Assembly: GCA_013178005.1 (NCBI GenBank)
Contig: JABLXL010000013.1
Span: forward strand, 1-52,629
Direction: 5' to 3'
Length of the DNA stretch: 52,629 nt
Origin: Actinomycetota bacterium
GTDB lineage: Bacteria; Actinomycetota; Geothermincolia; Geothermincolales; RBG-13-55-18
Positions 10,257-13,259 of the stretch are shown here, in pieces. A program made the position numbers and the translations under genes. Numbering within the stretch: the stretch's first letter is position 1; the number at the start of each line of letters is the position of its first letter. The notes under the pieces are model-generated. The model was not told the DNA's origin. It made no database searches and worked only from the letters and a program-made list of their open reading frames with translations.

Positions 10257-11201
10257 TTGGGGGCTATCCGCTTCAAGGTAGGCGACGACGGAGAAGGCGT
10301 GAGGCTTGATGTCTACGTGTCCCTTCACGCCGAGATGACCCGTGCCGCTGCGCAGCGCCTGATCGCAGAGGGCAGGGTGACGGTCGACGGCATAACCGCG
10401 CGCAAGCGCCACCTCCTGCGAGCGGGGGAGCTGGTGGAGTTCACCGTTCCGGACCCCTCGCCTCCCGGTCCGAGGGCGCAGGAAATACCCATCCGCGTGC
10501 TGTACCAGGATGCCGACCTGGCGGTGGTATGCAAGCCGGCGGGAATGGTGGTGCACCCCGCCGCCGGACACCATGAGGGCACGCTGGTGAACGCGCTGCT
10601 GTTCGCCCTGGACGGGTTGTCAGGGGTGGGCGGAGTGAGCAGGCCAGGAATCGTCCACCGCCTGGATAAGGACACCTCGGGACTGATGGTGGTGGCCAAG
10701 AACGACCGCTCTCACCATCTCCTCCAGGGCATGATAAAGGATCGTTCCTTGCGTCGCTTCTACCTCGTCCTGGTGCACGGGGTTCCTGCCACGGATATGG
10801 GGACGGTAGCGGCGCCGGTGGGGAGGGACGCGAGGAACCGCAAGCGCATGGCGGTCACTTCCGCTTCCGGCAGGGAGGCCGTGACCCATTTCAAGGTCTT
10901 GCGCGATTTCGGGCGCGCGTCCCTGCTCGAGGCCGAACTACAGACGGGGAGGACACACCAGATCAGGGTGCACATGGCCTATATCGGGCATCCGGTAGCT
11001 GGGGACAGGGAATACGGGCGGCCCGGATCCCTGGAAGCAGAGCTGGGTTTGAAGCGCCAGTTCCTCCACGCCTGGAAACTGTCCTTCGAGCATCCCCTCA
11101 CCGGGGAAGTCCTGGTCTTCGAGGAGCCCCTTCCCGAGGACCTGAAGCTTGCCATTGACCGCCTGGCTTCAATATCCGAGACCACAAGACACTCCCGCTG
11201 A
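10257..11201 (+). CDS. RluA-family 23S rRNA pseudouridine synthase (RluD-like)
   Basis: 314-residue pseudouridine synthase. An N-terminal S4 RNA-binding domain spans residues 14-64 (RLDVYVSLHAEMTRAAAQRL), followed by the RluA catalytic domain with the signature HRLDKDTSGLMVVAKN; the Asp in RLDKDTSG is the nucleophile. Further motifs are LQTGRTHQIRVHMA and a C-terminal LHAWKLSFEHP. It resembles RluD/YlyB, which modifies helix 69 of 23S rRNA, but the target is inferred. TTG 10257 lies one base after the lgt stop with GGAGGCGAGG upstream. The position after lspA is conserved in many Gram-positives. Confidence 0.95.
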   Translation: MGAIRFKVGDDGEGVRLDVYVSLHAEMTRAAAQRLIAEGRVTVDGITARKRHLLRAGELVEFTVPDPSPPGPRAQEIPIRVLYQDADLAVVCKPAGMVVHPAAGHHEGTLVNALLFALDGLSGVGGVSRPGIVHRLDKDTSGLMVVAKNDRSHHLLQGMIKDRSLRRFYLVLVHGVPATDMGTVAAPVGRDARNRKRMAVTSASGREAVTHFKVLRDFGRASLLEAELQTGRTHQIRVHMAYIGHPVAGDREYGRPGSLEAELGLKRQFLHAWKLSFEHPLTGEVLVFEEPLPEDLKLAIDRLASISETTRHSR

Positions 11202-11225
11202 CGCCCCGGTTCCGACCATTCATGC

Positions 11226-11247
11226 CCCGAAAACATGCGTTTTCGGG
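11226..11247 (+). terminator. Terminator-like hairpin after the pseudouridine synthase gene
   Basis: A perfect 9-bp stem CCCGAAAAC-atgc-GTTTTCGGG is followed by AATCTTCTCA. It lies 25 bp past the stop codon and probably ends the ileS/lspA/lgt transcript unit. The stem is strong; the T-tract is poor. Confidence 0.6.
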
Positions 11248-11303
11248 AATCTTCTCATCGTCTGCGCGCCATGGGCGGATAATAGTAGTGAAAGGAGGTC
11301 TTC

Positions 11304-11624
11304 ATGAGTATGCTGTATGGCGATAGGACGTTCCTCGACGGGAATGGGGCCTGCGACAGCATCATACGCATCGAGCTCATCACCCACTTTCACCGCAATC
11401 CGGGCATGGAGGGGACGCCGGAGCGCATGGCGGATGCCATAGGCCGGGAGAGGAAACGGGTGGAGGCTCAGCTTAAAAAGCTTGTGCAGTTGCGTATCCT
11501 GGAGGAAAGGGTTAAGGAAGGCGTGAAAACCTACCGCTACCTCCCGCCCGTTTCCATATCCTCAAGGCGGTGCGTGGAGGGTAAGGCTCCGGACACGGAG
11601 AACGCGGTGGTCGGAGCCACCTGA
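11304..11624 (+). CDS. Small winged-helix-like protein, paralogue 1
   Basis: 106-residue protein not assigned to a named family. Residues 20-80 look like a winged helix: a helix IIRIELITHFHRNPG, a second helix MADAIGRERKRVEAQLKKLVQL, then ILEERVKEGVKTYRYLPP, which fits the wing. It is closely related to the protein at 11790-12158: over 47 ungapped positions (20-66 here, 5-51 there) 21 are identical. A very good ribosome-binding site, AAAGGAGGTC, precedes ATG 11304. DNA binding is inferred from the fold pattern; a HTH-like sensor or dimerisation module is the alternative. The C-terminal 25 residues are unstructured. It stands alone between two hairpin-rich spacers. Confidence 0.75.
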   Translation: MSMLYGDRTFLDGNGACDSIIRIELITHFHRNPGMEGTPERMADAIGRERKRVEAQLKKLVQLRILEERVKEGVKTYRYLPPVSISSRRCVEGKAPDTENAVVGAT

Positions 11625-11642
11625 GATGCGCGGGCACGGGAT

Positions 11643-11715
11643 GGGGCGCCCGCTCGCCCCCCAACGATTACCTTTAGGTAGCAAAATCACTCCGCTGGCG
11701 GAGAAAAAGTTTTTC
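11643..11715 (+). other. Cluster of three hairpins between the winged-helix genes
   Basis: Three consecutive stem-loops: GGGGCG-cccgct-CGCCCC (11643-11660), TACCT-tt-AGGTA (11669-11680) and CTCCGC-tg-GCGGAG (11690-11703). They are followed by the palindromic GAAAAAGTTTTTC (11703-11715), whose T-run makes the last stem terminator-like. This probably ends the first winged-helix transcript; the other stems could be regulatory. Confidence 0.55.
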
Positions 11716-11789
11716 AGCATGGAATGAAAAGGGATAATTCGTTCAGGGCGCATGTTCGGAGGCGAAGCACGGAGGCGCGGGGAGGAGAG

Positions 11790-12158
11790 ATGTCGGGCAA
11801 GATCATACGCGTGGAAGTGATATCCTTTTTCAATCGAAATCCCGGGCGACGGTGCACATGCGAGGAGATCTCCGGCATGCTGGCCAGAACGAAGGATGAA
11901 GTGGAACCGGAACTCAACAACCTGGTGCGCCTGGGCATACTGGACTGTATTGAGGACGGCAAAAAGATGTTATATGCCGCAAGGGAGGCCTATACAGGCG
12001 GCGCCAGACACCGCTCGCGCGAGGACGCCGATGACGGTTTCATGGGCGAGGGCAAGCGCCGGAGTGAGGCCGTGGACGCAGGCAAATTCCCTGTCGAGCG
12101 CCGTTACAACGATACGTCCGAGAAGACGGAGGTAGAATGGCGTTGCGATGCGGGGTGA
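11790..12158 (+). CDS. Small winged-helix-like protein, paralogue 2
   Basis: 122-residue protein whose residues 5-65 (IIRVEVISFFNRNPG, then LARTKDEVEPELNNLVRLGIL) match the predicted winged helix of the gene at 11304-11624; both share the RNPG turn and the LV-LxIL helix end. Beyond residue 68 it has a highly charged, probably disordered tail of about 55 residues unlike its neighbour. ATG 11790 is preferred over ATG 11724 because GGGGAGGAGAG lies directly upstream and the protein then aligns end to end with its paralogue. Function is unknown; a tandem pair of small DNA-binding regulators is the best guess. Confidence 0.72.
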   Translation: MSGKIIRVEVISFFNRNPGRRCTCEEISGMLARTKDEVEPELNNLVRLGILDCIEDGKKMLYAAREAYTGGARHRSREDADDGFMGEGKRRSEAVDAGKFPVERRYNDTSEKTEVEWRCDAG

Positions 12159-12270: not shown

Positions 12271-12325
12271 ATCCTCCAGGGAAAAGCCCAGGGAGGACAT
12301 CTCCGCCTCCAGCTCTTAGATGAGC
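12271..12325. repeat. Partial decayed copy of the RecB-like gene's 3' end
   Basis: Bases 12271-12325 match 12417-12471, the 3' coding end of the minus-strand nuclease gene, at 52 of 55 positions by eye, offset by 146 bp. On the minus strand this copy encodes the EMSSLGFSLED end of that protein, with a stop nearby. The surrounding spacer (12159-12395) otherwise holds nothing recognisable. It is likely a tandem duplication remnant. Confidence 0.8.
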
Positions 12326-12395: not shown

Positions 12396-13259
12396 TCAGT
12401 CGCATTCCGTGGCGTCATCCTCAAGGGAAAAGCCCAGGGAGGACATCTCCGCCTCCAGCTCGGAGATGAGCTCATCTAACCTCTCGCGGCGCTTGAGCAA
12501 CGCCCTGTGGCGGGAGCGGAAGCTCCTCTCGGCGTCTTCCGCGCGGTCGAACGCGGGACAGATATCCCGGTACGAGCACCAGTCGCAAAGGCGGTTGGGC
12601 GTGGGTTCGAATTCGCCGTGGGAGATGAGCTCCGCGACTCCATCTATGCGCTCTCTGACCCGCGCGAGCCCCTCTTCGTCCAAAGGCCGGGTTGAGAAGC
12701 GCTGGTTGGGGACCAGGTAGTAGAAAGTGAGCTTCGAAGGGGTGATCCCCCAGACCTCTCCGCAAGCGAGCTGGTATATGGGCAACTGGAGGTCCTCGCG
12801 TAGCCTGGAGAGCTCGGGGAGGCGCCGGTTGGTCTTGTAGTCGATGATCTCGTACTTTCCATCGGGGTGGCGGTCCACGCGGTCGATTACCCCGCTCAGG
12901 ATATAGCCTCCCATGTTCAGCTCGAAACGCTCCTCCAACGCCACCGGGAGGCGGAAATCGGCCACGTTCGCGTGGTAATAGCAGGTCAACACCTCGCGGG
13001 CGTGCTCCAGGAACGACTCCTCCTGTTCCTCGTCCTCGAAACCCTCCCTGCTCCAGCAGGACAGCAGGTGTTCCTGGAGCTCTTCCAGGCTGGGGGGGAC
13101 GGGAACGTCGCGCCGGTAAAGCCATTCCAGCGCGGCGTGCAGGCTTCTCCCGAAGGAGAGGTGAGGACTCGGCTCCTCCTCGATGCCGTCCACGTAACGG
13201 TAGCGGTAGGCCAGTGGGCAACGCTCGTAGGAGCTGATGGCGGTATAGCTGAGTCGCAT
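12396..13259 (-). CDS. RecB/AddB-like PD-(D/E)XK nuclease with Fe-S cysteines
   Basis: 287-residue stand-alone nuclease of the RecB/Cas4/AddB superfamily. The active-site set is visible: His41, Asp126 (GVIDRVDR), Asp140-x-Lys142 (EIIDYKTN) and the helix QLPIYQLA at 158-165. Four cysteines arranged one plus three (Cys14; Cys225, Cys228, Cys234 in CDWCSYRDICP) match the 4Fe-4S clasp of AddB and Cas4. The last 45 residues form a charged helix. There is no helicase domain and no partner gene adjacent. ATG at 13259 has GGGAGGA five bases upstream. It is divergent from dnaE. A role in DNA end processing is inferred; with no Cas genes near, a CRISPR role is unsupported. Confidence 0.9.
   Translation of the reverse strand: MRLSYTAISSYERCPLAYRYRYVDGIEEEPSPHLSFGRSLHAALEWLYRRDVPVPPSLEELQEHLLSCWSREGFEDEEQEESFLEHAREVLTCYYHANVADFRLPVALEERFELNMGGYILSGVIDRVDRHPDGKYEIIDYKTNRRLPELSRLREDLQLPIYQLACGEVWGITPSKLTFYYLVPNQRFSTRPLDEEGLARVRERIDGVAELISHGEFEPTPNRLCDWCSYRDICPAFDRAEDAERSFRSRHRALLKRRERLDELISELEAEMSSLGFSLEDDATECD

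Follow-up and report, generated by a model that had tools for sequence, protein, structure and literature searches.

Two small adjacent genes, A and B, in a 52,629-nucleotide stretch of an actinomycetotal genome (the window; its genome is designated G000) are supported as a real and conserved pair of regulators, with DNA binding and a regulatory role predicted from the sequences and structural models. Three phased direct repeats lie upstream of both genes (Table 1), and the presence of the same array upstream of genes for surface proteins points to a previously undescribed circuit for cell-surface control. This shared, predicted operator array and the putative surface-gene regulon are the new content of the analysis.

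The two open reading frames of the preliminary description, encoding proteins of 106 and 122 amino-acid residues, are present at the positions given there, and each has the strong ribosome-binding site ascribed to it. The ungapped core common to the two proteins, previously put at 21 of 47 positions, is recovered by BLASTP as 21 identical residues in 48 (44%) with no gaps (E = 6e-12), and the tails yield no alignment, as expected of the unrelated tails that had been claimed. When the whole genome is searched with A, its best paralogue is B (E = 1.6e-7). The core of B is not basic (pI 6.3), which counts against the explanation favoured below. Within the genus, dN/dS for the coding sequence of A is 0.19–0.41, and that for B is about 0.25 between the window copy and that of genome G002, the remaining B comparisons being at or near saturation. 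Both genes are under purifying selection and therefore encode maintained proteins. The start codon of B is most likely the ATG at 11790, because orthologues retain the GGE derived from the ribosome-binding site ahead of MSGK, and because a longer frame would start inside the promoter. A 144-residue version starting at ATG 11724, which overlaps the promoter, is disfavoured.

Table 1. Genes and predicted control elements at the A–B locus (window coordinates)
Feature	Position	Strand	Basis
Putative rluD-type pseudouridine synthase, conserved upstream neighbour	10257..11201	+	Synteny
Promoter array of A, three repeats	11194-11204, 11215-11225, 11236-11246	+	21-bp period
-10-like hexamer GATAAT of A	11278..11283	+	42 bp from the start of site 3
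Ribosome-binding site of A, AAAGGAGGT	11291..11299	+	Precedes ATG 11304; kept in orthologues
Gene A, 106-residue winged-helix protein	11304..11624	+	Open reading frame; AF2 winged helix; orthologues; dN/dS
Promoter array of B, three repeats	11649-11659, 11670-11680, 11691-11701	+	21-bp period
-10-like hexamer GATAAT of B	11733..11738	+	42 bp from site 3, as in A
Ribosome-binding site of B, GGGAGGAGAG	11780..11789	+	Strong Shine-Dalgarno sequence before ATG 11790
Gene B, 122-residue paralogue of A	11790..12158	+	Open reading frame; homology to A; fold inferred by homology
PD-(D/E)XK nuclease (PF12705), conserved downstream neighbour	12396..13259	-	Pfam; synteny

The AF2 model of A, built with 13 A/B sequences, has a pLDDT of 94–96 across residues 21–80 and depicts a winged helix of α1-β1-α2-α3-wing topology, in which three helices are followed by two strands. 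The winged-helix prediction, which had been set beforehand as a refutation test, is thus borne out with confidence for A; for B the three helices and β wing are assigned by homology only. A winged helix is also modelled, at lower confidence, in the B orthologue at locus L095. The nearest PDB structures to the A model are the winged helices of the MarR, ArsR/SmtB, and Zα types (Foldseek probability 1.00, E-values of at least 2e-3), and a profile search matches 6uvu, an ArsR-type protein (E = 7e-5). A shares the overall fold with regulators of the ArsR, MarR, and SmtB types (PDB 6uvu AntR, 1smt SmtB, and 3r0a), but A and B match no ArsR or MarR Pfam family at E ≤ 1, so that the likeness is one of fold and profile only; they also differ from these regulators in that they give no evidence of a metal site or ligand, and in that the A model has no dimerisation helices. 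The cores of archaeal Lrs14 (NF040939), Sta1 (NF053606), and HVO_A0114 (PF25212) are weakly similar to A and B, but all of these fall below curated cut-offs: PF25212 gives 16.0 bits for A and 12.8 bits for B against a Pfam gathering cut-off of 27.6, and Lrs14 and Sta1 give 11.8 and 13.0 bits for B against NCBIfam cut-offs of 90 and 80, with no match for A. Every model in Pfam and NCBIfam scores below its cut-off for both proteins, and PHROGs yields nothing convincing for either.

The window belongs to the genus Ca. Solincola or to a very close relative of it, in the class Ca. Geothermincolia; at this locus the same-genus genome G001 agrees in sequence with Ca. Solincola daggyaiensis. Among 15 genomes of the Geothermincolaceae, A is present in 14, between rluD and nuclease/dnaE, and B in seven. 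The gene upstream of A putatively encodes an rluD-type pseudouridine synthase. Contig ends aside, each of the 13 further loci inspected has the gene order ileS-dksA-lspA-lgt-rluD-A-(B)-nuclease-dnaE, so that the proposed survey of the neighbourhood finds its rluD-A-(B)-nuclease-dnaE portion conserved across the family. The stand-alone nuclease and dnaE reported to adjoin the pair are indeed there, the nuclease belonging to the PD-(D/E)XK family PF12705 (E = 3.7e-45). Just past the stop codon of the nuclease gene lies a copy of its 3′ end, which forms a 55-bp direct duplication (12271-12325 and 12417-12471, 95% identical). Homologues in sister genomes, which had likewise been set as a refutation test, are found at the same locus; together with the fold of A, they support the earlier view of a lineage-specific pair of winged-helix regulators, with DNA binding as a prediction. 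The term lineage-specific holds at the level of the family or order and fails at that of the species. A, B, and X (a homologue in sister family f3, at a locus unrelated to that of A and B) form a clade (tree support 99/96) separate from C and D, which are additional paralogues encoded by the window genome. Wider relatives of A and B occur in other Actinomycetota.

Upstream of A, B, and X lie three direct repeats of roughly ACCGTTCRC with a 21-bp period, and X copies keep this array despite their unrelated locus. In most aligned promoters, site 3 starts 42 bp above a GATAAT-like -10 element; the alignment is anchored on the -10 element and is ungapped in nearly all copies, the exceptions in register being A of G005 and B of G001 and G003, which are off by one base, and a few A copies in which site 1 is off by about one base. 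The gapless alignment of the three repeats led to a sigma-28-like promoter being discarded as a candidate. Weight matrices transferred from A to B, from B to A, from family f1 to family f3, or from other genera to that of the window have their peak at 21 bp in every case; the control promoters of dnaE, ileS, and C/D give no peak. The A array, site 1 of which overlaps the rluD stop codon, outscores every other array both in the window and in the 1.31 Mb of the genome that were scanned. A strict pattern of three sites plus the -10 element, built from A and B, matched only the A and B promoters in 3.6 Mb, and its reversed control gave zero matches in 14 genomes.

The hairpin clusters that had been thought to separate the genes are for the most part putative operator sites. 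An inverted repeat does exist in the window copy: a perfect 9-bp pair, CCCGAAAAC/GTTTTCGGG, occurs upstream of A, and the stretch that contains it spans sites 2 and 3 of the conserved A array; in front of B, CTCCGC/GCGGAG makes up site 3 of the B array. This perfect repeat would favour an RNA element (hairpins, an attenuator, or a riboswitch) in the conserved upstream DNA, but the orthologues do not keep it, for which reason the RNA-hairpin reading is rejected. The conserved stretch moreover lies upstream of the -10 element and has no Rfam match apart from a distant tRNA, and an RNA element of any kind carries almost no weight as an explanation.

Since A and B keep strictly to their place beside rluD and nuclease-dnaE throughout the family, they could alternatively serve these neighbours, in translation or replication, the surface link being incidental. 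This is very improbable, as the X genes of the sister family keep the array at other loci, A and B have promoter elements of their own, and the dnaE and ileS promoters have no array.

The strict pattern also matched the promoter of a gene for a secreted protein of 174 amino acids in two genomes of genus g4. Orthologues of this protein were collected by protein homology and not by motif; their seven promoters have a mean score of 17.0 at 21-bp spacing and at most 7.8 at other spacings, compared with 0.87 ± 1.19 for shuffled promoters (maximum 6.34 of 2000). The window genome is among the seven, with an array of zero mismatches before the secreted-protein operon (G000:C35:30457-30508). A relaxed genome-wide search allowing three mismatches gave 10 matches for the reversed control and two for the real pattern in G000; therefore, only arrays with 0–2 mismatches, or those preceding a homologous gene in several genomes, were counted. 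The relaxed search places the array before one homologous family of secreted, partly fibronectin-III-like (fn3) proteins in five genomes (G000, G002, G014, G016, and G017), and in one genus (G012 and G014) the array also precedes a type IV pilin gene beside that for prepilin peptidase. Because the array precedes secreted-protein and pilin genes as well, A and B would belong to a surface-gene regulon.

The secreted-protein promoter of G010 (L208 7424-7539) has at least five tandem units with 21-bp spacing instead of three. Array-like matches at L205 1131-1183 and L206 6414-6466 lie upstream of a gene for a protein of 174–180 amino acids, a longer homologue of which adjoins the secreted-protein gene in G000.

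The best explanation, which we hold tentatively and at somewhat less than an even chance, is that A and B are second-tier regulators of the surface regulon and that the array is bound by a LytTR-type activator. A and B would be small winged-helix transcription regulators, probably DNA-binding, of a family spread across Ca. Geothermincolaceae and its sister lineages, and each would be transcribed alone. Their promoters would comprise three helically phased direct repeats of 9–11 bp above a poor -35 element and a GATAAT -10 element, a layout typical of activation that suggests an activated promoter. The array would most likely be bound by a LytTR-type activator, and A and B, once made, may then retune surface genes.

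A LytTR-type binder is preferred because the unit and the spacing match LytTR operators, which consist of 9-bp repeats such as ACCACTTAC, 12 bp apart and about 10 bp above the -35 element (PMC6193735, Tables 2-3); for the LytTR proteins RcoM and CoxC, operator triplets spaced two helical turns apart are described (PMC11347149). The operators of LRS systems, RcoM, and CoxC thus resemble the array in their 9-bp ACC-type units (e.g., ACCGTTCAC), their 12-bp gaps, their triplet form, and their position upstream of the -35 element, and the array follows the LytTR syntax of 9-bp direct repeats with gaps of about 12 bp above that element. Because this likeness to LytTR operators came to light only once the array was known, it carries somewhat less weight. 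Unlike in the known systems, neither a motif regular expression nor phmmer, with the E. coli LytTR proteins BtsR and YpdB/PyrR as queries, found a LytTR domain in the sampled 1.31 of 3.61 Mb (36%); about 16 other receiver-domain proteins occur in that 1.31 Mb.

LytTR systems often autoregulate, and none of the array matches is upstream of a LytTR gene. Behind the array, the pattern searches found no regulator genes other than A, B, and X, which is what self-regulation by these proteins would predict. A, B, and, in the sister family, X could then bind the 21-bp array as monomeric winged helices, combining auto- and cross-regulation with direct control of the secreted-protein and pilin genes, which is possible though somewhat doubtful. 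This would fit the presence of the array before copies of all three genes, X at its unrelated locus included. Beyond its winged helix, the A model lacks any helix for dimerisation, in keeping with a monomeric mode. Multimeric binding by small proteins of the winged or MerR-like kind is reported for BldC, on direct repeats (PMC5859096), and for RdfS (PMC11963761). Against self-binding, the unit and its 12-bp gap have been described for LytTR domains and not for winged helices, the gap is wide for head-to-tail contact, and a promoter may be inherited with its gene without autoregulation. The fuller proposal, that A, B, and X are an undescribed monomeric winged-helix family that acts on LytTR-like triple 21-bp repeats, autoregulates, and runs a regulon of surface-protein and pilus genes throughout an order of uncultured actinobacteria, some lineages of which sense through GAF domains while others have lost the sensor, we regard as unlikely.

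The array might instead be bound by another regulator, such as the NarL-type response regulator that, together with a hybrid kinase, is encoded beside the secreted-protein gene, in which case A and B would be two of its targets. In G000, G001, and G012, genes for a receiver-containing kinase-like protein and a LuxR-type response regulator lie near the secreted-protein gene that carries the array, and the same pair lies near another array in G005; the linkage is inconstant, however, the secreted-protein gene of G005 being elsewhere. To our knowledge, direct repeats of 9 + 12 bp are not the usual NarL arrangement, which also counts against such a binder, and we consider it decidedly improbable. 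In the window genome, the kinase-like protein and the NarL-type regulator are encoded at L198 2587-5140 (G000:C35), near the array-bearing operon. Binding by a LytTR-type protein, by A, B, and X, or by a NarL-type regulator is not separable by sequence alone.

There is also evidence, new here, of a relation between B and GAF-linked sensor regulators. In G012 and G014 (L042/L102), the B orthologue is a winged helix fused on the same chain to a C-terminal GAF region, as in GAF-coupled one-component regulators, and in sister family f3, X is followed by a separate gene for a GAF protein of 309–312 amino acids. The AF2 model of a 443-residue fusion has a pLDDT of 40, and only its N-terminal winged helix was used. 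This GAF region occurs in just four of 30 genomes of the class, namely those with the two fusions and two f3 genomes with the separate gene. B of the window, unlike these orthologues, has no GAF region on its chain, and the window genome contains no matching GAF region either. B would probably descend from a sensor regulator coupled to GAF, whose sensor was lost in the window genus, the direction of loss being presumed.

Paralogue D adjoins a gene for a single-domain KaiC in the window genome (L039 6185-7369, G000:C4), and winged-helix genes of the D group lie beside or within a few genes of those for single-domain KaiC ATPases in several families of Actinomycetota (L123, L133, L135, L136, L139, and L140); A and B themselves, unlike D and these relatives, are not near KaiC. 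In one family, a pair of ECF sigma and anti-sigma genes appears from the sequence to lie near the D-group and KaiC genes. In other families, a D-type gene adjoins DivIVA/YggU-like genes (L130 and L137), and that of L130 immediately precedes ileS-dksA-lspA, a chromosomal cluster of the kind that surrounds A and B.

The class to which these bacteria belong is known almost solely from metagenome-assembled genomes. A and B, small nameless open reading frames, become testable members of a putative regulon with a precise, repeated operator, and the array is a footprint with which the signal behind secreted surface proteins and pili may be sought. The two proteins would further represent a family of winged-helix regulators that lies outside all of the curated models tested and, in deep Actinomycetota, is paired with GAF or KaiC modules.
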